Shown one piece after another: positions 11,052 through 64,000 of a stretch of DNA of 64,000 bases. A model generated the notes under the pieces. It ran no database searches, was not told the origin of the DNA, and saw only the letters and a list, made by a program, of their open reading frames with translations. Origin of the DNA: Bacillus niameyensis (GTDB lineage Bacteria > Bacillota > Bacilli > Bacillales > Bacillaceae_C); NCBI RefSeq assembly GCF_001375535.1, contig NZ_LN831197.1:4366660-4430659 (forward strand). The letters run 5' to 3'. Each line of letters begins with the position of its first letter. The first letter of the stretch is position 1. A program made the translations under genes and the position numbers.

Positions 11052-11331
11052 AAAGCTGATCGCCAGTGTCAGAGACAATTTTCCGCAAAAGAGGCTCTTT
11101 ATGTCTCTGATAGGTTTTATCGAAGACAAAATGTCTAAAACGAGCTCGAAAATGTCTCTGATCGACTGAATCAGAGACATTTTTTCGCAAAAGAGGCTCT
11201 TTATGTCTCTGATAGGTCCTATCGAAGACAAAATGTCTAAATCGAGTATGAAAATGTCTCTGATCGCCAGTGTCAGAGACAATTTTTCCGAAAAGGGGCT
11301 CTTTTTGTCCTTGAAAATACGAATCCGGTTT
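11052..11331. repeat. tandem array of dyads at 51-bp spacing (array 1)
   Basis: Dyads of 25 nt (consensus GTCTCTGAT-N7-ATCAGAGAC) start at 11052, 11103, 11154, 11205, 11256 and, degenerate, 11307: exactly 51 bp each time. Two dyad variants alternate, so the visible sequence period is 102 nt. The dyad at 11154 has perfect 9-bp arms, extended to 11 by flanking AT/AT. The 26-nt linkers of alternate units are unlike each other. The array fills the gap between two convergent genes. Open frames of 123-148 codons on the minus strand here are repeat translations, not genes. Confidence 0.9.
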
Positions 11332-13794: not shown

Positions 13795-15075
13795 TCATTT
13801 CGGCAATTTCACTTGAAAGGTTGTTCCTTTCTGTTGTCCTCTTATTACTGCGATTGTTCCACCGTGTTTTGCAACGATCCATTGTGCAATCGAAAGACCT
13901 AATCCGCTTCCGCCAGTCTCCCGCGAACGTGCTTTATCTTCTCGATAAAAGCGATCGAAAATATGTTTCTCGTTTTCAGGTTTGATCCCAATCCCCGTAT
14001 CACTAATTTCGATATAAATCTTTGCATCTTCATTATATGTTTTTACGCCAATACTATCGCCTTCAGCTGTATACTTTAATGCATTATCAAGCAAAATGAC
14101 GAAGAGTTGATGAAGGCGGTCTTCATCTGCTTCAAGCTGTTCATGGCAGTTTAGATTCAACCAAAATTGCTTATCTTGTGATTCGGCAATTTCAATGTAA
14201 GGTGTACATATATTTTTAATAAAAGAATCAATCGGGATTGATGATTTAATAAGTTCTGTTTCCGCTGAATCTGCTCTCGCTAAAGTTAATAAGTCAGATG
14301 TCAATTTGGATAGTCTTCTAGTTTCCGATAAGCTAAGGGCGATATGCTCAAACTTGTCCATAATTTTTTCTGCTGGTGTCGTTAGCAATAGTTCTAGCTT
14401 ATTTTGGATAATCGTTAAAGGTGTTCGCAGTTCATGTGATGCGTTTTCGACAAACTCCGCTTGCTTGTTCCAAGAGCGGATAATCGGGGTCATCATTCTT
14501 TTTGACAACAAATAGCTTGCGGTTATGGAAAGCAAAATAAATATAATCGAACAAATTAAGAGCAGCTTTTCAAAGTTATCGACGAATGTATATTCTGCGT
14601 CAATGCTAATAAGGACCTGTGTATAAGCTCCTTCTTCATTATTAGGATCTTGAAAAAGCAAGTAGCGAAAATGATAAACATCATCAATCGTTGTTGTTGT
14701 AATCACATCTAACGGAGCTTCATCTAATTGATAATCTTGAAAATAACTTTCATATAACAAGGAACCAATTTCCTTTTCATTCATAATTTCCCCAGCTTTA
14801 TTCCATTTTAAAACGGTAATACGGGGGTTGGGATTCGGTCTTTGCCGACCATCTAGAGGCGGTGGTGTTCGATTTTTATCAAATGGTTGCTCTATTAACA
14901 TGTCCTTAAATGCTAATAATTCGTGATCTGATTTGGAAAATAGCGTTCTCTGTACTTGGTGGAAGATGATGATATCGAAAATAGTAAAGATTAGCGTAAA
15001 GGCAATTAAGTTTAAAATCATAAATTTTAATTGTTCTTTACGGAAAATTTTGTTTTTAATCATTGCCTTCACCAT
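13795..15075 (-). CDS. sensor histidine kinase
   Basis: A 426-aa membrane kinase. TM1 (about 18-38) and TM2 (about 168-190) enclose a 130-residue extracytoplasmic sensor part with a Pro-rich patch. The H-box ENASHELRTPLT places the phosphorylated His at 214; N-box DNALKY, G1 DTGIGI, F-box and G2 GGSGLGLSIA follow. It autophosphorylates and passes phosphate to the regulator encoded just upstream, which it overlaps by 20 nt from the ATG at 15075 (an alternative ATG at 15063 would give an 8-nt overlap). Neighbours suggest it controls the VTC/DUF4956 pair and the lipoprotein at 15979. Confidence 0.9.
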   Translation of the reverse strand: MVKAMIKNKIFRKEQLKFMILNLIAFTLIFTIFDIIIFHQVQRTLFSKSDHELLAFKDMLIEQPFDKNRTPPPLDGRQRPNPNPRITVLKWNKAGEIMNEKEIGSLLYESYFQDYQLDEAPLDVITTTTIDDVYHFRYLLFQDPNNEEGAYTQVLISIDAEYTFVDNFEKLLLICSIIFILLSITASYLLSKRMMTPIIRSWNKQAEFVENASHELRTPLTIIQNKLELLLTTPAEKIMDKFEHIALSLSETRRLSKLTSDLLTLARADSAETELIKSSIPIDSFIKNICTPYIEIAESQDKQFWLNLNCHEQLEADEDRLHQLFVILLDNALKYTAEGDSIGVKTYNEDAKIYIEISDTGIGIKPENEKHIFDRFYREDKARSRETGGSGLGLSIAQWIVAKHGGTIAVIRGQQKGTTFQVKLPK

Positions 15076-15742
15076 TTTCCGTCAGCATATACCCTAATCC
15101 CCGAAATGTTTTAATGTATTGATCATATCCATATTTTTTTAAAGTTTTCCGTAATTTACTAGCATACACTTCAACAACAGTCGTGGACGTATCTGATTCA
15201 AAGCCCCAAATTCGGTCAAAAATCTGCTCTTTCGTTAAAATCGTATTTTTATTATGAATGAAATATTCAAGAAGCTCGAATAATTTTCCATTCAGCGGAA
15301 GGAGTTCATCCTCAAATGAGGCTGTTTTATTTTTTACATTAAGTTTCAATTGCTTGAAAGAGAGCGTATTTTCTTCCAATGTTCCTCCTGCTCTGCGAAT
15401 GATTGCCTCTAGTCGTAACAGCAATTCCTCTCTATGAAATGGTTTAACGAGATAGTCATCAGCTCCTACTTTAAATCCATGGATTTTGTCATCAATCCCA
15501 TCCTTCGCTGATAGGATGAGCACTGGTGTTGTAATGTTTTTCACTCTTAAATTTTTTAAAACTTCATAGCCATCCATGTATGGCATCATAATATCTAAAA
15601 TAATAATATCGAATATATTTTGTTCGGCTAAAAATAATCCATCTTCCCCATTAAAGGCTTGTTCCGTTTCGAACAGGCCTTCCGTTGTTTCGCGGATTGT
15701 TTCAGACAGAAATTGATCATCTTCAATGATTAGCAGCTTCAT
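15056..15742 (-). CDS. OmpR-family response regulator
   Basis: A 228-aa regulator: receiver domain with acidic pocket EDD (7-9), phospho-acceptor Asp50 (ILDIMMPYMDG) and Lys100 (LVKPF), then an OmpR-type winged helix (about 130-225). The ATG at 15742 is chosen because the receiver begins there and AAGGTGAGG lies upstream; the open frame extends 35 codons further without a ribosome site. Its kinase gene follows and overlaps. Regulators of this class bind head-to-tail direct repeats about 11 bp apart, exactly what is found at 15898-15917 and 12925-12943. Confidence 0.9.
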   Translation of the reverse strand: MKLLIIEDDQFLSETIRETTEGLFETEQAFNGEDGLFLAEQNIFDIIILDIMMPYMDGYEVLKNLRVKNITTPVLILSAKDGIDDKIHGFKVGADDYLVKPFHREELLLRLEAIIRRAGGTLEENTLSFKQLKLNVKNKTASFEDELLPLNGKLFELLEYFIHNKNTILTKEQIFDRIWGFESDTSTTVVEVYASKLRKTLKKYGYDQYIKTFRGLGYMLTENGEGND

Positions 15743-15897
15743 TATAACCCTCACCTTACATGCTCTTAAATTATGTATCGATCTTACAGGATAGCGGAAA
15801 GAAAATGCAAGAAAGACTTTTCTAGTTAATTTTAAAAGGTAGTTCAATCAGTCTGGTAAAAAGACTTAAGCGAATTTCTTCGTAATGGAACACACAC

Positions 15898-15930
15898 TTT
15901 AAGGTTCTTTTAAGGTTGAGAGAAGATAAT
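15898..15930 (+). promoter_or_regulatory. promoter with direct-repeat operator (lipoprotein gene)
   Basis: TTTAAGGTT at 15898-15906 and again at 15909-15917 (11-bp period), then 7 nt, then GATAAT at 15925-15930 as the -10. There is no good -35 hexamer, as expected of an activator-dependent promoter. Matches the VTC-operon promoter in repeat, period and distance to the -10. Confidence 0.7.
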
Positions 15931-15978
15931 AGTTTCAAGTTCAAGGAAGGTCATCTTGAAAAGAAAGGATGAATATGT

Positions 15979-18306
15979 GTGAAATCTTCTTATTTTAAAT
16001 TAGCAGTATTTACGCTATCTGCCATGCTTTTAACAGCTTGTAATCCTAATACTGAAATAGAGAATAATTCAGCAGAAGAAAGTAAAGCTGCAGCTATGAC
16101 AATGGAGGATATGGATGAGGCGATTAGTGATATGGTCACTTATCAGAATGCTGACGAGTATAGCAATTGGAAAAATGAAAATCCAGTCTATATTGAGTTA
16201 AAAGGGAATGAAGCGATCTTTGATGATTCCCAAGCCTTGCTTCATTCTGAAGGAAATCTGACTATTAAAACGTCTGGTGTTTATGTTTTAAGCGGCGAGT
16301 GGGAAAATGGCCAAATTATTGTAGATGCGGAAGATAAAGGGACCGTAAAACTAGTTTTAAATGGAGTAGATATAAGCAGTGATAATAATGCTCCAATTTT
16401 TATTAAAAATGCGGAAAATACAATTATCTCTTTGCCTGAAGGAACAGAAAATACGATTACGGATGGAACGGATTATCAATTAGACGAAGCATCAGAAGGT
16501 GAGCCAGATGCGGCGCTATTTAGTAAAGATGATTTAACGATCAACGGGGAAGGTAAGCTAATCGTTAACGGAAATTATAATAATGGGATAAAGAGTAAGG
16601 ATAATTTGAAAATCACTGGTGGGAATATTGAAGTGACTGCCGTTGATGATGGGATTATCGGTCGGGATGTAGTTGCTGTCAAAGCTGGAAATATAAAGGT
16701 GAATGCCGGTGGAGATGGAATTAAATCAACGAATGACGAAAAAGAAAACAAAGGCGGTATCGTACTTCAAGGTGGGACATACAATATTGTCGCGGGTAGC
16801 GACGGAATGCAAGCTGCCACATCTGTCTACATTACCGATGGTTCCTATAACATTGTTTCTGGTGGAGGAAGTCCAGATAAAATTGAAGCTGAAGAACAAA
16901 GGCCTGATCCTTGGGGAGATTCTACAGAAGCGGCTACAGAGGAAGAAGATTCACCAAGTACGAAAGGGATCAAAGCCGAGAAGGTTCTAGCGGTAAGCGG
17001 CGGTACTTTTACAATTGATGCAATGGATGATGCCATTCATAGTAATGATCAAGTCGCTATTATCGACGGGGAGTTCGAAATTTCCACAGGTGATGATGGT
17101 GTCCATGCGGATTCTTCTCTCATTCTTGCTGGCGGAAAAATAAATATTACGAAAAGTTATGAAGGTGTCGAGAGTGCGCAGATTACGATTCTCGATGGTG
17201 AGATCCATATTACTTCCAGTGACGATGGAGTGAATGTGGGCGGTGGAAATGATGGCTCTGGTTTCGGAATGCCAAATGGTGGAGGTGGAATGCCGCCAAG
17301 AATGGAAGGGAATAGAGGCACAAATGGAAATGGCGAGGCTCCTCCGAATATAGATGCAGGTGAAGACGGAATGTCAACAGGTGAACAAGATAAGCCGGTA
17401 GCAAAAGACGGGGGAATGCCATCACAGAGCAGGCAAGACACGCAAGCAAACGAAGAAGGAAAAACAGCTACTAGTGATAGCACTAGCGGGGAAGTAGCAA
17501 GGGAGAATGGAAAACAGAGCACTGGGGAAGAAACTGAGGAAACGAAAGAGAGTGATGGAGGACTCATAATTCAAGGCGGTTATATCACGATCGATACGAA
17601 TGGTGATGGATTAGATTCAAACGGATCGATCACAATGACTGGTGGTACGGTGATCGTTAACGGTCCAACAAATAATGGCAATGGTTCGCTTGACTATGAT
17701 GAAAGCTTTGAAATTAGCGGAGGCACCTTAATTACTGCTGGGAGCTCTGGTATGGCAATGGCACCGTCAGAACAATCTACACAGAAGTCGATTTTAATGA
17801 CGTTCCCTGAAACAAAAAAAGCAGGTACGATTGTTCATCTTACAGGCCAGGCCGGGAATACGATCGCAACCTTTGTTCCTAGTAAAGACTATCAATCAGT
17901 TTTGATCAGCTCAGCCGAATTGAAACAGGGTGAAACGTACACTCTTTATTCTGGGGGCACAGCAACAGGGGAGAAACAAGATGGTTTATTTTTAGATGGG
18001 GAATATGAAGAAGGTACGAAAGTAGTCGACTTTACTATTTCAGAATCTGTAACGTGGCTGGATGAATCAGGTGTCACAACAGGTGGAAACTCGGGCCCTG
18101 GTGGAGGTTTTCCTAATGGAGGAGGAATGGGAGAGCAGCCACAAGGACAAGGACCTGGCGGGATGTTTAACGACCTTGATGAAGAAACTAATGAGAAGGT
18201 CCAGACGATAATGGAACAAGTACAGAACGGAACGATTACACAAGAAGAAGCTTCAGAAAAATTAGCTGAACTAGGTATTGAAGTACCGGGGCAAAGAAGA
18301 CAATAA
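15979..18306 (+). CDS. carbohydrate-binding-type lipoprotein (DUF4353-like)
   Basis: A 775-aa lipoprotein (lipobox LTAC, Cys21). Two blocks of short beta-helix-like repeats (about 60-420 and 530-590) recur as ITGGNIEVTAVDDGI, GGTFTIDAMDDAIHSND and similar, alternating G-G-T/I-I with D-D-G/A turns; this is the pattern of the cadherin-like/carbohydrate-binding DUF4353 family. Between them is a 110-residue insert rich in Gly, Met, Pro, Glu and Thr; a second Gly/Pro-rich stretch is near 695-725. GTG start with AAAGGATG upstream. Families of this kind often lie beside VTC/DUF4956 genes and a two-component system. Ligand unknown. Confidence 0.8.
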   Translation: MKSSYFKLAVFTLSAMLLTACNPNTEIENNSAEESKAAAMTMEDMDEAISDMVTYQNADEYSNWKNENPVYIELKGNEAIFDDSQALLHSEGNLTIKTSGVYVLSGEWENGQIIVDAEDKGTVKLVLNGVDISSDNNAPIFIKNAENTIISLPEGTENTITDGTDYQLDEASEGEPDAALFSKDDLTINGEGKLIVNGNYNNGIKSKDNLKITGGNIEVTAVDDGIIGRDVVAVKAGNIKVNAGGDGIKSTNDEKENKGGIVLQGGTYNIVAGSDGMQAATSVYITDGSYNIVSGGGSPDKIEAEEQRPDPWGDSTEAATEEEDSPSTKGIKAEKVLAVSGGTFTIDAMDDAIHSNDQVAIIDGEFEISTGDDGVHADSSLILAGGKINITKSYEGVESAQITILDGEIHITSSDDGVNVGGGNDGSGFGMPNGGGGMPPRMEGNRGTNGNGEAPPNIDAGEDGMSTGEQDKPVAKDGGMPSQSRQDTQANEEGKTATSDSTSGEVARENGKQSTGEETEETKESDGGLIIQGGYITIDTNGDGLDSNGSITMTGGTVIVNGPTNNGNGSLDYDESFEISGGTLITAGSSGMAMAPSEQSTQKSILMTFPETKKAGTIVHLTGQAGNTIATFVPSKDYQSVLISSAELKQGETYTLYSGGTATGEKQDGLFLDGEYEEGTKVVDFTISESVTWLDESGVTTGGNSGPGGGFPNGGGMGEQPQGQGPGGMFNDLDEETNEKVQTIMEQVQNGTITQEEASEKLAELGIEVPGQRRQ

Positions 18307-23985: not shown

Positions 23986-24128
23986 GATTATCACCCTTTT
24001 TAGTATAGCAAATACGGGGGATAGAATGGGGAAAGTCGTAAGAATCGCTACTTAAACTACTTTAGTAATTGATCAATAATAAGCATTTCTTTTTGTATTT
24101 TCAATGTACTTAAGGATACATAAATTAT

Positions 24129-24407
24129 GTCTTTGATCATCGCTCTCGGAGACAAAATCCCGAAATTTATTGTAAAAAAGTCTCTGAGGGAGGTGATCAG
24201 AGACAAAAGACGGGAGAAAAAGTAAAATATGTCTTTGATCGTTGCTCTCGGAGACAAAATCCCGAAATTTATTGTAAAAAAGTCTCTGAGGGAGATGATC
24301 AGAGACAAAAGACGGGAGAAAAAGTAAAATATGTCTTTGATCGTTGCTCTCGGAGACAAAATTCTGAAAATTTCCAAGAAGGGGTCTTTGACTAATCAGT
24401 CAGAGAC
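24129..24407. repeat. tandem array of dyads at 51-bp spacing (array 2)
   Basis: Dyads of 24-25 nt begin at 24129, 24180, 24231, 24282, 24333 and 24384: exactly 51 bp each. Two forms alternate, one like GTCTTTGATC...GGAGAC and one with arms GTCTCTGA/TCAGAGAC, so the sequence repeats every 102 nt. The dyad sequence is the same family as array 1 but the 26-nt linkers are different. It lies between the end of the NERD gene and the start of the Bce regulator. The 106-codon minus-strand frame here is repeat translation. Confidence 0.9.
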
Positions 24408-24416
24408 GGAAATTTT

Positions 24417-25325
24417 TTATTTAAAATAGGTCCATCTATTTAAGTAGATTTGTTTGAAGTTTTTCTGCAAAATACGGGATATTCTCTTTTTTGAGGAGAC
24501 TATTTTACACCAGTCGTGTATCAGCCCTGTTGTCATTTTTTCATTAGGAAATAGGAGTTGAAATTCATTGGCGCTTCGTATGACTGCTTCAGTAACGCTT
24601 TCCTTAGTATGACAGTTTTGACAGATACAGGCACTTCCTGAAATGGATACCAAAAAGGAATGACAGTTTTTACAAACTATTCCCTTACGCAAAGAATGAT
24701 AATTATAGGATGGTAATTTTGAAAAACGAGAATCATCCATATGCAAAGACACAAGTTTTTCAGCCAATAGTTTATGTTGCCTTGTTAGTTTAGACTGTGT
24801 TGCATCAACCTTTTGCAAAGTGCGGTGAACTTGTCCAGGGAAGATCAATGGTAAGTCCATAGGTGCCTGATATAACGTGAATTCGGGGTTTATAAAAACA
24901 ACGGAATCAACGATGGGGAGTTTATGGCCAAGTAGGTGAAGTAATCGGTTTAATAGTGAGTTGTTTTTTCTTAATTGATTCAGCGGGTTATTAATTTCGA
25001 TTTTATTCATTGTGTACATTTTATCTGATTCGTAATAATAGTCCCCGGAATTGTTCTTTACTTCGAAAGGGTAAATGATTTCAGAGGTAATGATCAATGT
25101 ATCAATTTGAAATGTTGAATTGTTCACTTCCAGGAGCAGATCATTCAATATAATGCAATCACATTCCAATTTTTCTGTCATAGAATCAAACATGATTTCG
25201 CCTTCGTATCCTTTTAGTAAGTTGAGGTAATAGCGTTTATCTTCTTCGGATAAAGACATGCGTGTGTTTAAAAATTTTAGAGCTTTTAAAGTTGTAGATT
25301 CAGTGCGGGGCTTGCCAATGATCAA
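24417..25325 (-). CDS. NERD-domain protein with zinc ribbon
   Basis: A 302-aa protein. Residues about 30-150 form a NERD (nuclease-related) domain: GYEGEIMFD, CDCIILNDLLLEVNN, FQIDTLIIT and PFEVKN, the last giving the restriction-endonuclease-like E-x-K. After about residue 210 there are two Cys pairs, CKNC and CQNC, a probable zinc ribbon. Nuclease activity is inferred only. The TTG at 25325 is preferred to the GTG at 25337: AAAGGTGG stands 8 nt before the TTG, and homologues begin with a similar MII-KPR. No conserved partner is adjacent. Confidence 0.8.
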   Translation of the reverse strand: MIIGKPRTESTTLKALKFLNTRMSLSEEDKRYYLNLLKGYEGEIMFDSMTEKLECDCIILNDLLLEVNNSTFQIDTLIITSEIIYPFEVKNNSGDYYYESDKMYTMNKIEINNPLNQLRKNNSLLNRLLHLLGHKLPIVDSVVFINPEFTLYQAPMDLPLIFPGQVHRTLQKVDATQSKLTRQHKLLAEKLVSLHMDDSRFSKLPSYNYHSLRKGIVCKNCHSFLVSISGSACICQNCHTKESVTEAVIRSANEFQLLFPNEKMTTGLIHDWCKIVSSKKRISRILQKNFKQIYLNRWTYFK

Positions 25326-25376
25326 GGGATGAACCACCTTTCTTTTGGATTTATTGATAAGGGAGATTTATATTGA

Positions 25377-54977: not shown

Positions 54978-55097
54978 CGATCACATTACATCATGACGGA
55001 AGTAGAAATAATAAATATAATTTCTATGGAATCCGCTTTCTATATGATATAACATTGTTAGTGTAACTGAAAATAATATGCAAAGAGGGGAAAGCAA

Positions 55098-56129
55098 ATG
55101 GCAAAAAAATATAAAGTAGTAGGGTATGCTGGGGACGGCTCCTTACCTAGTATTACTACGGAAGATGCTTTGAAATTAACTCATTTAAACGTAGCATTTG
55201 GCCATGTGAAAAATGACGAGATTCGAATCGATCATTTGAAAAATTTGGATCATCTAAAAGAATTGAAGAAAGCGAATCCAGAACTTACTATTTTACTATC
55301 TGTGGGCGGTTGGAGTGCTGGGGGGTTCTCGGAAGCAGCTTCTACTCAAGAAGGCAGGAAGCTAATGGCAGATAGCGCTGTTAAAATTCTAAAAGAGCAT
55401 ACTTTGGATGGAATTGATCTTGATTGGGAATATCCTTGCTATGGTGAAGCTGGTATTGGATCTTCGCCAGCTGATAAAGAAAACTTTACATATTTATTAA
55501 AGGAAATAAGAGAGTCATTGGATGCGCTTGAAAAGGAAACGGGAAAATATTATCTCCTCACGATTGCGGCAGGAGCAGACCAGTATTATGTTGATGGGAC
55601 TGAGATGGCAGAAGTTCAAAGGTATTTAGATTACGTGCAGCTCATGACTTACGACATGCGCGGAGGGTTCCAAACGTTGACTGGTCACCATACGAATTTA
55701 TATACACCAACAGGTGATCTTTTCAGAATTAGTGTTCAAAAATCAGTTGAAATATTTATGCAAGCTGGTGTTCCGCGAGAGAAAATCGTGATTGGCGCTG
55801 CGTTCTATTCACGCATGTGGAAGGATGTACCAAATAAAAATAACGGTTTACATCAGATGACGGCAGGTTCTGGAGGATATGGACCGGATTATTCTCAGCT
55901 TGACGCTGAATACATTAACAAGAACGGCTTTACCCGTTTTTGGGATGACGAAGCAAAAGCTCCTTATCTTTTCGATGGCAGTACGTTTATTACGTATGAT
56001 GATGAAGAATCGATCGAACATAAATGTAAATACGTATCTAGTGAGAAACTCGGAGGAATTATGTTCTGGGAATACAAATGTGATGAAACCCACCGTCTTC
56101 TAGATGCGATGGATAAGTCACTAAATTAG
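55098..56129 (+). CDS. glycoside hydrolase family 18 (chitinase-like)
   Basis: A 343-aa single-domain GH18 barrel. SVGGWS (68-73) and the catalytic DGIDLDWE (104-111, acid Glu111), YVQLMTYD and the final MFWEYKCD are the family's barrel motifs. It cleaves beta-1,4-GlcNAc polymers or oligomers. There is no signal peptide or binding module, so it may act on imported chito-oligosaccharides or be released by lysis. AGAGGGGAAAG precedes the ATG. Divergent from the CBM9/transglutaminase operon. Confidence 0.9.
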   Translation: MAKKYKVVGYAGDGSLPSITTEDALKLTHLNVAFGHVKNDEIRIDHLKNLDHLKELKKANPELTILLSVGGWSAGGFSEAASTQEGRKLMADSAVKILKEHTLDGIDLDWEYPCYGEAGIGSSPADKENFTYLLKEIRESLDALEKETGKYYLLTIAAGADQYYVDGTEMAEVQRYLDYVQLMTYDMRGGFQTLTGHHTNLYTPTGDLFRISVQKSVEIFMQAGVPREKIVIGAAFYSRMWKDVPNKNNGLHQMTAGSGGYGPDYSQLDAEYINKNGFTRFWDDEAKAPYLFDGSTFITYDDEESIEHKCKYVSSEKLGGIMFWEYKCDETHRLLDAMDKSLN

Positions 56130-56138
56130 TATTGGGGT

Positions 56139-56185
56139 GCTCTTAGGAAGTTGCGATTTTTAGCGACTTCTTGAGAGCTTTTTTT
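56139..56185 (+). terminator. terminator of the GH18 gene
   Basis: GCTCTTAGGAAGTTGC pairs with GCGACTTCTTGAGAGC with two or three mismatches, followed by TTTTTTT (56179-56185). Confidence 0.85.
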
Positions 56186-56281
56186 GTCTGGTTGGATGAT
56201 ATAATTTTGGGGGAGAGGACACTGGTATAATTCGGATGCGGATTTGTCGTTCTATTATAGAGGAGGACATGGAATAATAGT

Positions 56282-56666
56282 TACGAATTGGATCGAATCG
56301 TGCCCGTTTTGGATGGAAGCACGGTAACAAGGTAACGATTCGGAGTGAATCGTGCCCGTTTTGGATGGAAGCACGGTAACAAGGTAACGATTCGGAGTGA
56401 ATCGTGCCCGTTTTGGATGGAAGCACGGTAACAAGGTAACGATTCGGAGTGAATCGTGCCCGTTTTGGATGGGACCACGGCAACATGGTAACGATCCGGG
56501 TTGAATCGTTCTCGTATCGGATGGGAACACGCCAACACGGTAACGATTGGGATCGAATCGTGCCCGTTCCGGATGGGAACATGGCAACATGGTAACGATT
56601 TGGGTTGAATCGTTACCGTTTCGGATGAGACCACGGAAAAATGGTAACGATTCGGAATCAATCGTT
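56282..56666. repeat. tandem array of dyads at 52-bp spacing (array 3)
   Basis: Eight dyads of 21 nt (AACGATT-N7-AATCGTK) start at 56282, 56334, 56386, 56438, 56490, 56542, 56594 and 56646, always 52 bp apart. Units 2-4 are almost identical; the others differ at many positions yet have no insertion or deletion, and the dyad arms are the best-kept part. It lies between the GH18 terminator and the DUF2829 gene. Minus-strand frames of 140-148 codons here are repeat translations. Confidence 0.9.
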
Positions 56667-56818
56667 CCAGTTGAATCATGTCCATCATTAGTGTCTGGCA
56701 CTTGTTCAACTTCAGCTCCTGAATAAAATGATTCCCTGAAGCCTAGTGATAATCCTAACTTTTGCCTTTCAGCTCAATTCCCTATATGATTTTCTTAGAA
56801 AAAAAGAAGGGATGAACG

Positions 56819-57043
56819 ATGATGACATTTGAAGAAGTTTTACCATTATTAAAAGCTGGAAAAAAAGTGATTCGCGAAGGATGGCCTGGAGCGGAATTAT
56901 ATGTGAAATTAGTTGAGGAATCAACTTTTGATCAAGAAAAATTGAATCCATATTTTTTAATTAATGTTGAAGGGGAAGGCTATACGATGTTTACCCCAAC
57001 AGTTTGTGACTTATTAGCTGAGGATTGGGTAGAGGTTAAATAA
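56819..57043 (+). CDS. DUF2829 / Tad2-like small protein
   Basis: A 74-aa single domain: MTFEEVLPLLKAGKKVIREGWPG at the start and TPTVCDLLAEDWVEV at the end, the pattern of DUF2829. This family includes Tad2, a phage protein that sequesters the signal molecule of the Thoeris defence system. No phage genes are near, so this chromosomal copy may have another role. GAAGGGATG precedes tandem ATG codons at 56819 and 56822. It is 21 nt before the SDR gene. Confidence 0.75.
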   Translation: MMTFEEVLPLLKAGKKVIREGWPGAELYVKLVEESTFDQEKLNPYFLINVEGEGYTMFTPTVCDLLAEDWVEVK

Positions 57044-57064
57044 CGAAAGTGATGGGACAACGAG

Positions 57065-57808
57065 ATGGAATTTGAAGGGAAAACTGTTTTTATAACAGGA
57101 GCTGCCTCTGGAATTGGGCATGCTCAAGCAATTGCCTTTTTGGAAAAGGGTGCGAATGTATTTGCCCTCGATATTAAAAAGCAAGGTTTAGAAATACTCA
57201 CTGAAAAATATAAACATTTTTCTTATAAAGTTGGATCTGTTACAGATCGATCCATTATTGAAGAAGCCGTTCAACAGGCTATAAGTGAATTTGCGTCGAT
57301 CGATATTTTAATCAATACAGCTGGAATATTAGATGGCTACGCGACAACATTGGCAACAGATGAAATGCTATGGGACAAGGTGATGAACACAAATGTCAAA
57401 GGCATGTATCTTGTCACGAATGCTGTGCTCCCTTACATGTTGAAACAAGAGAAAGGGATTATTATTAACATGGCATCAATTGCGGGACTTGTTGCTGGCG
57501 GCGGGGGAGCAGCGTATACAGCTTCTAAACATGCGGTTATTGGTTATACGAAACAACTGACCTTTGATTACAGCAGGCAAGGAATCCGAGCGAACGTACT
57601 TGCACCTGGGGCGATTCAAACGCCAATGAATCAGGCGGATTTCGAAGGGGAAGCAGAAATGGCTAAATGGGTGGCTAATGAAACACCAGCTGGGAGATGG
57701 GCGCAGCCAGATGAGGTGGCAAAAGCGACCCTCTTTTTAGCAAGCGCGGGAGCAAGTTACATACAAGGGGCAGTTCTTCCAATTGATGGCGGATGGATCG
57801 TAAAGTAA
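57065..57808 (+). CDS. SDR family oxidoreductase
   Basis: A 247-aa classical short-chain dehydrogenase: cofactor loop TGAASGIG (11-18), NTAG, catalytic Ser in NMASIAG and Tyr151/Lys155 in YTASK. An acidic residue at the end of strand 2 (FALDIK) suggests NAD(H). Annotated relatives are often called 3-oxoacyl-ACP reductase, but the sequence does not fix the substrate. The ribosome site is weak; it may be coupled to the preceding small gene. Confidence 0.85.
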   Translation: MEFEGKTVFITGAASGIGHAQAIAFLEKGANVFALDIKKQGLEILTEKYKHFSYKVGSVTDRSIIEEAVQQAISEFASIDILINTAGILDGYATTLATDEMLWDKVMNTNVKGMYLVTNAVLPYMLKQEKGIIINMASIAGLVAGGGGAAYTASKHAVIGYTKQLTFDYSRQGIRANVLAPGAIQTPMNQADFEGEAEMAKWVANETPAGRWAQPDEVAKATLFLASAGASYIQGAVLPIDGGWIVK

Positions 57809-57837
57809 ATTGGCTATATACAAAATTAGATAATCTG

Positions 57838-57846
57838 TGATACAAT
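57838..57846 (+). promoter_or_regulatory. extended -10 promoter of queT
   Basis: TG-A-TACAAT fits an extended -10 element and lies 7 nt before the first stem of the queT leader; no good -35 box is seen. Confidence 0.5.
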
Positions 57847-57852
57847 TTGCAG

Positions 57853-57940
57853 GCAAGTATTTTAACTTGCACTACGGCACTTCTTCTTCTTTGGCCGTGG
57901 TTATTACTAAAATAGCAAATTTGCTATTTTACAAAGGAGA
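57853..57940 (+). ncRNA. preQ1-II-type riboswitch
   Basis: The queT leader has the layout of the class II preQ1 riboswitch: an optional stem GCAAGT/ACTTGC (57853-57870); stem CTACGGC/GCCGTGG (57872-57878 with 57894-57900) whose loop ends in CTTCTTT; a linker with ATTAC; a hairpin AAAATAGCAAA/TTTGCTATTTT (57909-57930); then ACAAAGGAGA. The loop CTTCTTT can pair with AAAGGAG, forming the pseudoknot that hides the ribosome site when preQ1 binds. The downstream gene is a queuosine-precursor transporter, as expected. Confidence 0.75.
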
Positions 57941-57945
57941 TTCAT

Positions 57946-58455
57946 ATGAGTAGAACAACATTAGAGACAAGCTCCCGGATTAAGAGTCAGGAGCTGGTCA
58001 AAGCTGCATTAGTTACGGCATTATATGTAGTCGTAACCTTTCTATTATCTGTTATTAGTTTCGGTCCACTTCAATTGCGTTTAGCAGAAATGTTTAACTA
58101 TTTAGCTCTCTATCATAAACGATATGTTTTTGCCGTCACTTTAGGAGTCGTGATTGCCAACTTCATGTCGCCAACATGGATACTGGATGTTCCCATTGGA
58201 GCAACAGCTACATTTCTCGCATTAATTCTTTGTCGCGCTCTGACGAAAAGAATTAAAAACGACATTTTAAAAATCACCATAACCGCAATTGTTTTTGCGA
58301 TTTCCATGTTTTCAATTGCGTTTCAATTTCATGTTTTATTAAATTTTCCATTCTTCTACACATGGTTCACAATGGCTGTAGGTGAGCTCTTTTCGATGAC
58401 AGTCGGGGGAATCATTATTCATTTTGTAAGTAAAAAATTTGATTTAACGAAGTAA
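57946..58455 (+). CDS. queT: QueT-type queuosine precursor transporter
   Basis: A 169-aa membrane protein with about five helices. LISFGPLQLRLAEMFNYLA-like region (SVISFGPLQLRLAEMF), NFMSPTWILDVPIGATATF and GELFSMTVGG are the QueT (formerly DUF988) pattern. It is the substrate-binding S component of an ECF-type importer for a queuosine precursor such as preQ1; energy subunits are elsewhere. Translation is probably controlled by the riboswitch in its leader. Confidence 0.85.
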   Translation: MSRTTLETSSRIKSQELVKAALVTALYVVVTFLLSVISFGPLQLRLAEMFNYLALYHKRYVFAVTLGVVIANFMSPTWILDVPIGATATFLALILCRALTKRIKNDILKITITAIVFAISMFSIAFQFHVLLNFPFFYTWFTMAVGELFSMTVGGIIIHFVSKKFDLTK

Positions 58456-58483
58456 GAGACGGCAGTGATCGTCTCTTTTTTTT
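58454..58483 (+). terminator. terminator of queT
   Basis: AAGAGACG (58454-58461) and CGTCTCTT (58470-58477) form a perfect stem with T-run to 58483. It overlaps the queT stop codon. Confidence 0.85.
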
Positions 58484-58565
58484 GAGGAATTTCTTCTGAA
58501 TTTTAAAAAACACCTTGCTTCCTTAATTTGGATTTGGTATAATTTTAAAAATATTTAAATGCAAC

Positions 58566-58837
58566 GAAGAGGAATAGTAGGATTTTTGAAGCGATCAGAG
58601 AGCTGTTGGATGGTGTGAAACAGCCGTGGATCAATCTGAACTCACCTTGAAGCAGCCCACTGAAATGTGAAAAGTAGGTGGGGACGGAACCTAACCGTTA
58701 TAGTAGGGGGATATAAGGTTTTTTAAAACCTATGTCTACCTGAGTGCATACATTTTTTGTATGAATTAGAGTGGTACCGCGATCGATGACAAAGTCTTTC
58801 GTCTCTATATAGTTTATAGAGGCGAAGGGCTTTTTTT
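58566..58837 (+). ncRNA. leucine T-box leader
   Basis: A T-box regulatory leader. The AGAG/GGTG...GAAACAG stem I motifs lie at 58597-58623, the specifier CTC (leucine) at 58641-58643 after TGAA, the T-box AGAGTGGTACCGCG at 58768-58781, and the terminator (AGTCTTTCGTCTC...GGCGAAGGGCT then T7) at 58793-58837. Uncharged tRNA-Leu would pair with CTC and with the T-box, form the antiterminator and allow leuA transcription. The Leu specifier matches the gene. Confidence 0.92.
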
Positions 58838-58872
58838 GTTTTTTAGAAAAAGAGAAGAGGGCGGGGATTGAA

Positions 58873-60534
58873 TTGAAAAACGTTGATAAGTATGCAAGAG
58901 GTTATTTTATGCCTCCAGAGATGAGCTTGAATTGGGCAAAGAAAGAATATATAACAGAAGCCCCTACTTGGTGTAGTGTGGATCTTCGCGATGGTAACCA
59001 AGCGTTGGTTGTACCGATGAATCTAGAGGAAAAGCTTGAATATTTTCAAATGCTTGTGGAAATTGGGTTTAAGGAAATTGAAGTAGGTTTTCCGGCGGCA
59101 TCTGAAACAGAATACGTATTTTTGCGCAGATTGATTGAAGACAATTTGATACCAGATGATGTAACGATTCAAGTGTTGACTCAATCAAGAGAGCATATTA
59201 TCCAAAAGACTTTTGAATCTTTGCGTGGTGCAAAAAGTGCGGTTGTTCATCTTTATAATTCAACATCGGTTGCTCAGCGTGAACAAGTATTCAGAAAGTC
59301 GAAGGAAGAAATTATTGAAATCGCTGTTTCAGGTGCGAAGTTATTGCAAAAATATGCGGAAGAAACGGAGGGGAATTTCAAGTTTCAATATTCTCCTGAA
59401 AGCTTTACGGGAACGGAAATTAATTTTGCGTTGGACATTTGTAATGCGGTTTTAGATGTTTGGAAGCCGACAGCCGACAATAAAGTGATTATTAATTTGC
59501 CGGCAACTGTAGAGATGTCGATGCCACACGTATACGCTAGTCAAATAGAATACATGAGTAATCACTTGGATTATCGAGAAAATGTGATTTTGTCCCTTCA
59601 TCCCCATAATGATCGAGGAACGGGGGTTGCTGATGCTGAGCTTGGGCTGCTTGCAGGTGGGGAGAGAATCGAGGGAACGCTATTTGGAAATGGTGAAAGA
59701 ACAGGGAATGTTGATGTTGTAACACTTGCCTTGAATATGTTTTCCCATGGTGTGGATCCTAAACTAAACTTTGAAAACATCCTTGAGATTATTGAAGTTT
59801 ATGAACGGATGACGAAAATGAAGATCAATGAGAGACAGCCATATGCAGGGAAGCTTGTATTTGCCGCCTTTTCGGGTTCTCATCAGGATGCAATTGCGAA
59901 AGGGATGAAGTGGCGAGAAGAAAAAGACTGCGAAAAATGGACTGTACCTTATTTGCTTATCGATCCAAAAGATATTGGAAGAGAGTATGAAGGTGATGTC
60001 ATTCGCATTAATAGCCAGTCAGGGAAAGGTGGCATTGGGTATGTTCTTGAACAACAATATGGACTGGACCTGCCCCCGAAAATGCGTGAAAGTTTTGGCT
60101 ATATAGTGAAAGACGAATCTGACAAATTCCAAAAAGAGCTTTTGCCAGATGAAATATATGGAATTTTTATGAAGGAGTATGTGAATGTTTCTACTCCAGT
60201 AGAGTTTCTGCATTACGCGTATACGAAATCCGATGATTATGAAACAAAAGTAACGGTTAACATCAAAGGTGAAGTTGAAGAATTGACAGGTTTCGGTAAC
60301 GGCCGTTTTGATGCGATCAACAATGCCTTACAACAAAAGCTAGGAATTCAATATTCGGATTTAGTTTATAAGGAGCATGCCCAGGAAACCGGCTCAAAAT
60401 CGAATGCCGTATCATATGTCGGAATTACAGCCGCAGATGGTTCTGTGTATTGGGGAAGCGGAATAGATGCGGATATTATGACCTCGTCCGTTAAGGCGCT
60501 TTGTAGTGCGGTGAATAATTTGCTGAAAGGTTAG
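58873..60534 (+). CDS. leuA: 2-isopropylmalate synthase
   Basis: A 553-aa LeuA of the longer yeast-type class, first step of leucine synthesis (2-oxoisovalerate plus acetyl-CoA). Catalytic barrel: CSVDLRDGNQALV at about 35-47, HPHNDRGTG metal-binding His pair, GNGERTGNVD; the regulatory domain follows after about residue 420. TTG start with AGGGCGGGG upstream. Unlike the usual ilv-leu operon it stands alone behind its own T-box. Closed by a terminator at 60538. Confidence 0.92.
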   Translation: MKNVDKYARGYFMPPEMSLNWAKKEYITEAPTWCSVDLRDGNQALVVPMNLEEKLEYFQMLVEIGFKEIEVGFPAASETEYVFLRRLIEDNLIPDDVTIQVLTQSREHIIQKTFESLRGAKSAVVHLYNSTSVAQREQVFRKSKEEIIEIAVSGAKLLQKYAEETEGNFKFQYSPESFTGTEINFALDICNAVLDVWKPTADNKVIINLPATVEMSMPHVYASQIEYMSNHLDYRENVILSLHPHNDRGTGVADAELGLLAGGERIEGTLFGNGERTGNVDVVTLALNMFSHGVDPKLNFENILEIIEVYERMTKMKINERQPYAGKLVFAAFSGSHQDAIAKGMKWREEKDCEKWTVPYLLIDPKDIGREYEGDVIRINSQSGKGGIGYVLEQQYGLDLPPKMRESFGYIVKDESDKFQKELLPDEIYGIFMKEYVNVSTPVEFLHYAYTKSDDYETKVTVNIKGEVEELTGFGNGRFDAINNALQQKLGIQYSDLVYKEHAQETGSKSNAVSYVGITAADGSVYWGSGIDADIMTSSVKALCSAVNNLLKG

Positions 60535-60537
60535 GGA

Positions 60538-60592
60538 AATGCCAGGTTCCAGAACAATGGTAATTGTTTTGTAGCCTGGCATTTTATTTTGT
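60538..60592 (+). terminator. terminator of leuA
   Basis: AATGCCAGG (60538-60546) and CCTGGCATT (60575-60583) form a perfect 9-bp stem, followed by TTATTTTG; the loop holds a smaller ACAAT/ATTGT hairpin. Confidence 0.8.
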
Positions 60593-60647
60593 TATTACAC
60601 TGGAGCTAAGTCGAAGACTAACAGGAAACGTCTTAGGAGATGGTCAC

Positions 60648-63600
60648 TGTAACGATTGGCTCTGAATCGTTCCCGTATTGCGGTGACCGCATATGAAAAG
60701 GTAACGATTGGCTCTGAATCGTTCCCGTATTGCGGTGACCGCATATGAAAAGGTAACGATTGGCCCTGAATCGTTCCCGTATTGCGGTGATCGCATATGA
60801 AAAGGTAACGATTGGCTCTGAATCGTTCCCGTATTGCGGTGATCGCATATGAAAGGTAACGATTGGTCGTGAATCGTTCCCGTATTGCGGTGATCGCATA
60901 TGAAAAGGTAACGATTAGCCCTGAATCGTTCCCGTATTGCGGTGATCGCATATGAAAAGGTAACGATTAGCCCTGAATCGTTCCCGTATTGCGGTGATCG
61001 CATATGAAAGGTAACGATTGGTCGTGAATCGTTCCCGTATTGCGGTGATCGCATATGAAAAGGTAACGATTGGCTCTGAATCGTTCCCGTATTGCGGTGA
61101 TCGCATATGAAAAGGTAACGATTGGCTCTGAATCGTTCCCGTATTGCGGTGATCGCATATGAAAAGGTAACGATTGGCTCTGAATCGTTCCCGTATTGCG
61201 GTGATCGCATATGAAAAGGTAACGATTGGCTCTGAATCGTTCCCGTATTGCGGTGATCGCATATGAAAAGGTAACGATTGGCTCTGAATCGTTCCCGTAT
61301 TGCGGTGATCGCATATGAAAAGGTAACGATTGGCTCTGAATCGTTCCCGTATTGCGGTGATCGCATATGAAAAGGTAACGATTGGCTCTGAATCGTTCCC
61401 GTATTGCGGTGATCGCATATGAAAAGGTAACGATTGGCTCTGAATCGTTCCCGTATTGCGGTGATCGCATATGAAAAGGTAACGATTGGCTCTGAATCGT
61501 TCCCGTATTGCGGTGATCGCATATGAAAAGGTAACGATTGGCTCTGAATCGTTCCCGTATTGCGGTGATCGCATATGAAAAGGTAACGATTGGCTCTGAA
61601 TCGTTCCCGTATTGCGGTGATCGCATATGAAAAGGTAACGATTGGCTCTGAATCGTTCCCGTATTGCGGTGATCGCATATGAAAAGGTAACGATTGGCTC
61701 TGAATCGTTCCCGTATTGCGGTGATCGCATATGAAAAGGTAACGATTGGCTCTGAATCGTTCCCGTATTGCGGTGATCGCATATGAAAAGGTAACGATTG
61801 GCTCTGAATCGTTCCCGTATTGCGGTGATCGCATATGAAAAGGTAACGATTGGCTCTGAATCGTTCCCGTATTGCGGTGATCGCATATGAAAAGGTAACG
61901 ATTGGCTCTGAATCGTTCCCGTATTGCGGTGATCGCATATGAAAAGGTAACGATTGGCTCTGAATCGTTCCCGTATTGCGGTGATCGCATATGAAAAGGT
62001 AACGATTGGCTCTGAATCGTTCCCGTATTGCGGTGATCGCATATGAAAAGGTAACGATTGGCTCTGAATCGTTCCCGTATTGCGGTGATCGCATATGAAA
62101 AGGTAACGATTGGCTCTGAATCGTTCCCGTATTGCGGTGATCGCATATGAAAAGGTAACGATTGGCTCTGAATCGTTCCCGTATTGCGGTGATCGCATAT
62201 GAAAAGGTAACGATTGGCTCTGAATCGTTCCCGTATTGCGGTGATCGCATATGAAAAGGTAACGATTGGCTCTGAATCGTTCCCGTATTGCGGTGATCGC
62301 ATATGAAAAGGTAACGATTGGCTCTGAATCGTTCCCGTATTGCGGTGATCGCATATGAAAAGGTAACGATTGGCTCTGAATCGTTCCCGTATTGCGGTGA
62401 TCGCATATGAAAAGGTAACGATTGGCTCTGAATCGTTCCCGTATTGCGGTGATCGCATATGAAAAGGTAACGATTGGCTCTGAATCGTTCCCGTATTGCG
62501 GTGATCGCATATGAAAAGGTAACGATTGGCTCTGAATCGTTCCCGTATTGCGGTGATCGCATATGAAAAGGTAACGATTGGCTCTGAATCGTTCCCGTAT
62601 TGCGGTGATCGCATATGAAAAGGTAACGATTGGCTCTGAATCGTTCCCGTATTGCGGTGATCGCATATGAAAAGGTAACGATTGGCTCTGAATCGTTCCC
62701 GTATTGCGGTGATCGCATATGAAAAGGTAACGATTGGCTCTGAATCGTTCCCGTATTGCGGTGATCGCATATGAAAAGGTAACGATTGGCTCTGAATCGT
62801 TCCCGTATTGCGGTGATCGCATATGAAAAGGTAACGATTGGCTCTGAATCGTTCCCGTATTGCGGTGATCGCATATGAAAAGGTAACGATTGGCTCTGAA
62901 TCGTTCCCGTATTGCGGTGATCGCATATGAAAAGGTAACGATTGGCTCTGAATCGTTCCCGTATTGCGGTGATCGCATATGAAAAGGTAACGATTGGCTC
63001 TGAATCGTTCCCGTATTGCGGTGATCGCATATGAAAAGGTAACGATTGGCTCTGAATCGTTCCCGTATTGCGGTGATCGCATATGAAAAGGTAACGATTG
63101 GCTCTGAATCGTTCCCGTATTGCGGTGATCGCATATGAAAAGGTAACGATTGGCTCTGAATCGTTCCCGTATTGCGGTGATCGCATATGAAAAGGTAACG
63201 ATTGGCTCTGAATCGTTCCCGTATTGCGGTGATCGCATATGAAAAGGTAACGATTGGCTCTGAATCGTTCCCGTATTGCGGTGATCGCATATGAAAAGGT
63301 AACGATTGGCTCTGAATCGTTCCCGTATTGCGGTGATCGCATATGAAAAGGTAACGATTGGCTCTGAATCGTTCCCGTATTGCGGTGATCGCATATGAAA
63401 AGGTAACGATTGGCTCTGAATCGTTCCCGTATTGCGGTGATCGCATATGAAAAGGTAACGATTGGCTCTGAATCGTTCCCGTATTGCGGTGATCGCATAT
63501 GAAAAGGTAACGATTGGCTCTGAATCGTTCCCGTATTGCGGTGATCGCATATGAAAAGGTAACGATTGGCTCTGAATCGTTCCCGTATTGCGGTGATCGC

Positions 63601-64000
63601 ATATGAAAAGGTAACGATTGGCTCTGAATCGTTCCCGTATTGCGGTGATCGCATATGAAAAGGTAACGATTGGCTCTGAATCGTTCCCGTATTGCGGTGA
63701 TCGCATATGAAAAGGTAACGATTGGCTCTGAATCGTTCCCGTATTGCGGTGATCGCATATGAAAAGGTAACGATTGGCTCTGAATCGTTCCCGTATTGCG
63801 GTGATCGCATATGAAAAGGTAACGATTGGCTCTGAATCGTTCCCGTATTGCGGTGATCGCATATGAAAAGGTAACGATTGGCTCTGAATCGTTCCCGTAT
63901 TGCGGTGATCGCATATGAAAAGGTAACGATTGGCTCTGAATCGTTCCCGTATTGCGGTGATCGCATATGAAAAGGTAACGATTGGCTCTGAATCGTTCCC
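60648..64000. repeat. giant tandem array of dyads at 52-bp spacing (array 4)
   Basis: 65 copies of the dyad AACGATT-N7-AATCGTT start at 60651 and recur to 63977, running off the window. Of 64 intervals 62 are 52 bp and two are 51 bp (before 60858 and 61013). The first eight units vary in the 7-nt centre (GGCTCTG, GGCCCTG, GGTCGTG, AGCCCTG), while unit 9 onward appear identical by eye. The arms never vary. The minus strand of the unit has no stop triplet in any phase, so three open frames of about 1000 codons appear; each reads a 52-residue period and none is a credible gene. Total array size is unknown. Confidence 0.95.

Follow-up and report, generated by a model that had tools for sequence, protein, structure and literature searches.

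Tandem 52-bp dyads behind leuA in Bacillus niameyensis and a candidate protein partner with a NERD domain

What is a tandem array of 78 inverted repeats, almost all spaced at exactly 52 bp, for? The question is raised by the right-hand end of the window analysed here, a stretch of 64,000 nucleotides of the Bacillus niameyensis chromosome in which such an array follows a gene that we take to be leuA, the name used in the preliminary description of this DNA. The dyad AACGATT-N7-AATCGTT (the AACG dyad) occurs 67 times in the window, 65 times in this main array and twice in a second array, compared with a mean of 0.02 in 100 shuffles of the window (0/100 contain as many). The array is probably the DNA half of a two-part system, in which the cognate binder would be a protein with a NERD domain (Pfam PF08378) encoded next to it. 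The preliminary description had proposed a platform for a dimeric DNA-binding protein, with nucleoid organisation, chromosome positioning, a transcription roadblock or a sink that titrates a regulator as candidate roles. The platform is supported in part: half-sites are kept, their changes are not compensatory, and a protein with a helix-turn-helix-like (HTH-like) tail is encoded beside the main array.

Our recount reproduces the 65 dyads and the 62 of 64 spacings of exactly 52 bp given in that description, the other two being 51 bp; the first dyad lies at 60651, and the last starts at 63977 and ends at 63997. The array had also been said to continue past the window, and it does: in full (locus L061, 2309-6336) it has 77.5 copies and 78 dyads with spacings of 52 bp (75) or 51 bp (two), stops about 676 bp beyond the window edge and is complete in the assembly, where it adjoins no unread (N) stretch. 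Within it, 69 consecutive units are identical and the left-edge units and the final unit are diverged, a pattern typical of satellites that exchange keeps uniform. The main array belongs to the published 52-nt tandem repeats of Bacillus: its repeat length lies within 51-53 bp, it has more than the minimum of four repeats, and it sits outside genes, in the gap that separates leuA from the gene that follows. Subirana and Messeguer 2021 (PMC8161180) described this class as constant in length, free in sequence and species-specific, and gave no function; they discussed nucleoid proteins and small RNA, named no protein partner and saw no evidence for a Cas-like one. Among the papers listed by literature searches, none ties 52-nt repeats to a protein. 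What is new relative to the published class is the cross-genus occurrence of the half-sites, the lack of covariation, the leading-strand bias, the odd-centred dyads and the adjacency of NERD genes.

The gene convergent to the main array, just outside the window, encodes a protein of 329 amino acids (aa), ends about 140 bp from the array and matches NERD PF08378. Another such gene lies in the window, beside an array of a different dyad, the TGTCTC family (Table 1), and a third PF08378 match is the gene behind an AACG array in G158, a genome from another family of the same order. Local searches added three more members of this subfamily, each ending at an array of the 52-nt class (52-class array), with the dyad TGTCAGAAT in G158, AACG in G008 (same genus) and TGTCTC in G320. 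These six close NERD genes, from four genomes and with three dyad families, all end at 52-class arrays, with stop-to-array distances of 26, 51, 83, 119, 140 and 141 bp. AACG partners occur in B. niameyensis, G158 and G008, TGTCTC partners in B. niameyensis and G320, and the TGTCAGAAT partner in G158; NERD neighbours that go with different dyads are not one cassette copied around. Gene and array are opposite in orientation in 3/3 AACG cases, and, as far as seen, no dyad family has more than one array with a NERD gene next to it in any one genome.

These counts cover the loci searched rather than whole genomes (130 loci, 2.26 Mb of non-N sequence with some overlap, plus four 20-kb loci). Two profiles, one from all nine proteins and one from the NERD part alone, retrieved nine NERD genes, and the next match was unconvincing (E 0.28). 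The three distant members, all from B. niameyensis and 23-25% identical, adjoin repeats of 20-21 bp, one clearly and two weakly: in the first, a 20-bp repeat begins 22 bp past the stop; in the second, there are two repeat copies only, within the end of the open reading frame (ORF); in the third, degenerate units were seen by eye and the nearest array found by Tandem Repeats Finder (TRF) is 475 bp away. Across the window and 78 loci that were not chosen for arrays, a 20- or 52-class repeat lies at the 3' end of 4/5 NERD genes and 25/1283 other genes (Fisher 1e-6); for the 52 class alone the figures are 2/5 and 12/1283 (p 0.001). At array-chosen loci, a 52-class array adjoins 4/4 NERD genes and 20/498 others (p 4e-6). 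Whether the 52-nt and 20-21-nt repeat classes are each the DNA half of a NERD system, with subfamily I using 52-bp and subfamily II 20-bp repeats, is to our minds evenly balanced; if they are, each protein would recognise its own dyad, and repeat length would be set by the NERD subfamily and sequence by the DNA-binding tail. Such systems would represent a new class of nuclease-plus-satellite element, oriented with replication and capable of seeding arrays across a chromosome.

The neighbour protein has about 305-330 aa and comprises a NERD domain, a four-cysteine zinc ribbon and a C-terminus that looks HTH-like from its sequence and that no profile names. Scores of 52.1-67.5 bits for 9/9 proteins stand well above the Pfam cut-off of 22.1, and the six close proteins are about 40-52% identical. 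A passage in PMC12458937 describes NERD as a subtype of PD-(D/E)xK endonuclease, and according to an excerpt of PMC9040797 the bacterial NERD domain had no studied role before SmdA. The PD-(D/E)xK residues are present in 6/6 close proteins, as FQ[IV]D and [ED][VI]K, and the acidic residue before xK is missing from one distant protein (L126). Four cysteines (C222, C225, C239 and C242 in the window protein) are invariant in the six close members. Profiles of defence systems and NCBI families gave matches only far under their cut-offs, most of which fall in the NERD portion of a larger protein. In a tree built from the N-terminal part, AACG and TGTC partners fall into separate groups across species (support 0.81), and residue 287 is R in three AACG partners and S or Q in three TGTC partners, a suggestive sign that the protein may track its dyad family.

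Half-sites of the main array extend well beyond B. niameyensis. The pattern GTAACGATT-N7-AATCGT-KM-CCGT also occurs in genome contigs of Cytobacillus massiliigabonensis, Neobacillus niacini F8, Bacillus sp. OV166 and a Bacillus metagenome-assembled genome, with 32.7, about 3, 2.2 and 1.9 copies of the 52-bp unit, respectively. A second pattern, GTAACGA-N9-AATCGT-NN-CCG, matched 4/397 genomes of the order: B. niameyensis, G158 with 130 matches, G008 with one exact match and G279, from a third family, with one; a reversed control pattern had no match in these four. Within the genus the strict pattern matched 1/16 genomes, that of B. niameyensis, and a DNA search added G008. Conservation in relatives, which the preliminary description had anticipated for a functional dyad, is found in at least seven other genomes but in only G008 among the 15 other genomes of the genus that were searched. 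The general property of the 52-nt class that sequence is restricted to a species does not hold for these half-sites, which are found in Cytobacillus, Neobacillus, Bacillus sp. OV166 and G158. The exact dyad was absent from viral contigs, where a pattern scan that reaches near relatives only found no NERD relative either; on plasmids a 521-bp piece of the array matched nothing and no NERD relative was found. A literature search with the half-site letters returned, among the matches listed, only off-topic work.

Different genera share the half-sites and differ in loops and linkers: in bits per position over 30 array consensuses, conservation amounts to 1.92 for half-sites, 0.39 for loops and 0.33 for linkers. 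Since units were first chosen by their half-sites, conservation was recounted on register-cut units from 18/30 loci, and among 17 informative rows the half-site register ranked 1-5 of 52 rotations in 11 and 8-9 in three. This retention bears on the idea of a neutral satellite produced by slippage and unequal exchange and tolerated wherever no promoter is broken. Homogeneous cores with diverged edges, the 69 identical units and a 260-bp higher-order repeat in the largest AACG array (L071, about 119 units, in which five 52-mers form a unit repeated about 24 times) are what such a satellite would produce. So is location: 0/30 arrays lie between divergent genes (11 are in convergent and 19 in co-directional gaps), compared with background proportions of divergent gaps of 49/180 in B. 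niameyensis and 18/98 in G158. Neutrality is nevertheless unlikely given that, in most arrays and across bacterial families, half-sites are held as loops and linkers drift, and that the period stays near 52 across unrelated sequences, both in our rows and in PMC8161180.

Are the half-sites kept as DNA letters or as the stem of a hairpin? Among the 30 array consensuses, 0/11 stem pairs show a two-sided change (shuffles average 0.8), and pairing is broken at three stem positions in 25/30, 17/30 and 13/30 consensuses. The lack of compensatory changes together with the broken pairs indicates that letters are kept, not pairing, and a structured RNA element is not supported on this count. Transcribed arrays of RNA hairpins, serving as a small RNA, a sponge or an RNA-level terminator, would suit the fact that every AACG unit is an inverted repeat, the position of arrays at gene 3' ends, and the report that the 52-nt repeats of B. 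coagulans are transcribed (PMC8161180). Yet an Rfam scan of window positions 55000-64000 had a T-box before leuA as its sole match and none in the array, and a strong leuA terminator precedes the array. Gene ends that face arrays have a terminator of their own in 15/28 cases, against four on the control strand; the other 13/28 lack one ahead of the array, which is what a transcribed array would allow. Taken with the stem results, these observations make an RNA role very unlikely.

Reading the array as protein is harder still to credit. Its minus strand is open for 1072 codons (ORF 60644-63862), and 11/30 consensus units are stop-free on that strand, a number reached by 6/2000 linker shuffles, which is the case for a coding tandem repeat. 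Total minus-strand stops are not depleted, however (43 against 50.6, standard deviation 5.4; 177/2000 shuffles are as low), 52 is not divisible by three, and the related arrays among the 30 are not independent, so that such a repeat is barely credible and the ORF most likely just reflects the repetition of a unit that happens to lack stops. An array of clustered regularly interspaced short palindromic repeats (CRISPR) was also rejected, because distinct spacers are absent and entire units recur, loops and linkers included.

The imperfect AACG dyad is directional, and by local GC skew it is oriented with the leading strand in 27/31 arrays or sites (12/14 in B. niameyensis, two of them single sites; 9/10 in G158; 6/7 in other genomes), with a two-sided binomial p of 3.4e-5 that assumes independent loci. 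Arrays with convergent flanks follow the leading strand in 5/7 cases in B. niameyensis and in 1/1 in G158; transcription and replication are inseparable in these data as the cause of the bias. Two related AACG arrays of G158 (L188 17924-19021 and L189 3851-5244), separated by about 5 kb, have opposite orientations, one of them running against the leading strand, and the pair resembles an inversion or an inverted copy. On contig C6 of B. niameyensis, GC skew locates the replication origin at about 3.0 Mb and the terminus at about 0.75 Mb, and among the matches listed no AACG locus lies in C6 97-1866 kb, a terminus stretch of 1.77 Mb (largest-gap p 0.02), inside which TGTCTC dyads do occur.

Such polarity is what a chromosome-organising platform would show, with phased dyads bound by a nucleoid or segregation protein other than the NERD protein and NERD genes as merely frequent neighbours. 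Chromosome organisation is the strongest competing explanation, although NERD proteins could bind the arrays under it as well. The strand bias, the almost constant spacing, the AACG-free terminus and the nucleoid proteins and RNA discussed in PMC8161180 all point towards it. Against it, the terminus gap has a p of no better than 0.02 and is absent from the TGTCTC family, NERD adjacency is left unexplained, several unrelated dyads per genome would demand several such proteins, and presence is patchy, with the AACG pattern in 4/397 genomes of the order. We rate organisation of the chromosome by another protein as rather unlikely.

Spacing and dyad geometry say more about the kind of protein to expect. 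Intervals are exactly 52 bp in 286/292 cases for AACG dyads in B. niameyensis and 221/235 in G158; the remainder are 51 or 53 bp, missed units and a few of 75, 92-94, 112 and 146 bp. There are no intervals of 42 or 62 bp, and a few in G158 (92-94 and 146) resemble multiples of 52 less about 10 bp. The earlier suggestion that 52 bp, as five turns, keeps each dyad on the same helix face fits the near-constant spacing, but helical phasing itself is only plausible and the same period also serves unrelated dyads. Among 29 families (24 published consensuses from PMC8161180 and five from this analysis), the dyad beats shuffles at p 0.05 in 20, and the core is odd in 19 of these (15 with 5, 7 or 9), compared with 146/314 strong shuffled dyads. 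The G158 AACG consensus, scored separately, has no significant dyad (p 0.27), and 10 of another 21 TRF rows, which largely repeat families covered before, pass the test, nine of them with an odd core. AACG and GAATAG units of B. niameyensis have the frame xGG-NN-6-N7-6-NN-CCG in common and differ in their inner hexamers; the array at L267 also conforms, its hexamers matching at 4 of 6 positions, the G158 AACG unit keeps it and a G158 CTTCAT unit lacks it. The layout of the dyad tends to persist when its letters differ, which would be expected of one protein family with shifting specificity.

For the proposed pairing of array and NERD protein, a NERD homodimer would sit on each dyad, with one dimer per five turns of the helix, and its NERD domain would act on the bound DNA; arrays without a neighbouring NERD gene would be served in trans. 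Binding with occasional cutting or nicking during replication could let recombination lengthen and shorten arrays, and new arrays with that dyad might be seeded behind other genes, so that the pair would amount to a nuclease with its own satellite. A role of the NERD protein in amplification is the more tentative part of this scheme, and we hold it to be possible rather than probable.

Several observations weigh against the pairing. Most arrays have no NERD neighbour in the stretch read (AACG arrays or sites with one: 1/15 in B. niameyensis, 1/11 in G158, 0/2 in Cytobacillus, 0/4 in N. niacini and 0/1 in G279), and no NERD gene turned up in another 80 kb of G158. The nine NERD genes are a small sample; the limit of -160/+150 bp used to score adjacency was fixed after the ORF-end case was known, and without that gene 4/5 becomes 3/5; six of the 78 loci adjoin two already known to hold NERD genes. 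Half-sites show no clear excess conservation in 3/17 register-cut rows (ranks 14, 17 and 22). On the protein side, the HTH region alone fails to resolve the dyad families, with residue 287 its single separating column, and the split of the six proteins into three and three, best of 10, is weak (14 columns against 12 for the next). A single-sequence structure model was too poor for use (predicted local distance difference test score of 32), and a profile search for solved relatives gave one unconvincing match (E 0.28), to the zinc ribbon only.

The window and the chromosome contain more than the preliminary description listed, namely the second AACG array, two 51/102-bp arrays in the window (Table 1) and at least 13 further AACG loci in the genome. 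The second array is more diverged than the main one, with half-sites kept and loops and linkers variable. Upstream of leuA lies a T-box leader (RF00230, 133 bits; window 58555-58809).

Table 1. Positions of the arrays and of the genes and signals next to them in the window (TRF, Tandem Repeats Finder)
Feature	Position	Strand	Basis or remark
52-bp dyad array, in-window part	60649..64000	+	TRF (period 52, 99% matches), dyad count; whole array 78 units
leuA (presumably; 2-isopropylmalate synthase), left neighbour of main array	58873..60534	+	ORF list
leuA intrinsic terminator, between gene and array	60536..60591	+	-29 kcal/mol hairpin plus T run
Second AACG-dyad array, 7.3 units	56295..56672	+	TRF; exact dyads at 56594-56666
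51/102-bp array, other dyad family TGTCTCTGA-N9-TCAGAGACA (TGTCTC)	24121..24369	.	TRF
306-aa protein with NERD domain (PF08378), CxxC zinc ribbon and HTH-like tail	24417..25337	-	3' end faces 24121-24369 array, 51 bp (TRF)
Dispersed TGTCTCTGA-family 51/102-bp array, convergent genes either side, no NERD gene adjoining	11056..11309	.	TRF

Across the 4.68-Mb assembly (six contigs), the AACG dyad occupies at least 15 loci, at twelve of them as an array (3 to about 120 units) and at three as a single site; 100 of 255 places are represented, so that locus counts are lower bounds. Several families of the same length coexist, as in the published class: AACG, TGTCTC, GAATAG-N7-CTATTC (L129, L262, L265 and L266, the last with a very large array of 74.9 units at 14397-18290) and the unit of L267 3405-9571, which has 118.6 copies and a weak dyad only. 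Copy numbers hinge on the assemblies, and two other arrays of this genome adjoin unread stretches, so that their sizes are uncertain. In stretches not chosen for arrays, TRF found seven 52-class arrays in 753 kb of B. niameyensis, eight in 640 kb of G158 and none in 200 kb of the same-genus genome G014. G158 also carries a 52-bp CTTCAT-ATGAAG family (L221, L223, L270 and L188 7072-7759), with no NERD gene seen nearby. Repeats of 20-21 bp are common in B. niameyensis (L122 138-286 and 4456-4597, L126 5922-6166, L254, L255 and L263), and the units in L122 contain the small dyad ATAC-GAGA-GTAT. A different satellite, at L123 1-4892 (C6 near 2.808 Mb), has a 363-bp unit repeated 13.5 times with 99% likeness, and this unit itself holds a diverged 156-bp repeat.

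NERD adjacency is a first lead to the function of 52-nt satellites. If array and protein are partners, the fixed repeat length would have a physical cause, the protein, and the freedom of sequence would reflect changing specificity; two puzzles would meet, the unexplained 52-nt satellites and the bacterial NERD proteins, which an excerpt of PMC9040797 presents as nearly unstudied. Bacteria would also have something comparable to the satellites of eukaryotes, with a protein devoted to it.

How does this compare with known systems? Repetitive extragenic palindromic (REP) elements and bacterial interspersed mosaic elements (BIMEs), with their REP-associated tyrosine transposase (RAYT), are palindromic units at gene 3' ends that combine one protein gene with many dispersed copies. 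The arrays described here share the palindromes at 3' ends, and that likeness, with the imperfect dyads, the strand bias and the single protein gene with many dispersed copies, is the case for REP/BIME-like elements spread by a Y1 (RAYT) transposase. They differ in protein class and in their 52-bp tandem arrangement, and the main-array unit lacks the GTAG or CGTC tag that REP elements carry according to a passage in PMC3733652. Y1_Tnp (PF01797) occurs in 10/13 genomes irrespective of arrays, and none was found in the C. massiliigabonensis (G034) assembly searched despite its 32-unit array, on which ground the RAYT link was rejected, its probability being close to negligible. The CIRCE/HrcA operator (controlling inverted repeat of chaperone expression) is an odd-centred 9-N9-9 dyad found as single sites at promoters. 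The dyad TGTCTCTGA-N9-TCAGAGACA has the same geometry and differs in its letters and in forming arrays instead of single promoter sites. With known NERD PF08378 proteins, the nine found here share scores above the Pfam cut-off and, in the six close members, the PD-(D/E)xK residues; they differ in being fused to a zinc ribbon and an HTH-like tail and in being encoded beside satellites. With the 52-nt repeats of Bacillus, the arrays share a period of 51-53 bp, the coexistence in a genome of several families equal in length, short signals with their reverse inside units and a second class of 20-21 nt. They are longer (78, 75 and two of about 119 units, compared with 25 and 37 in B. cellulosilyticus; PMC8161180), and whereas that study reports no conservation of sequence between species, the half-sites described here cross genera.

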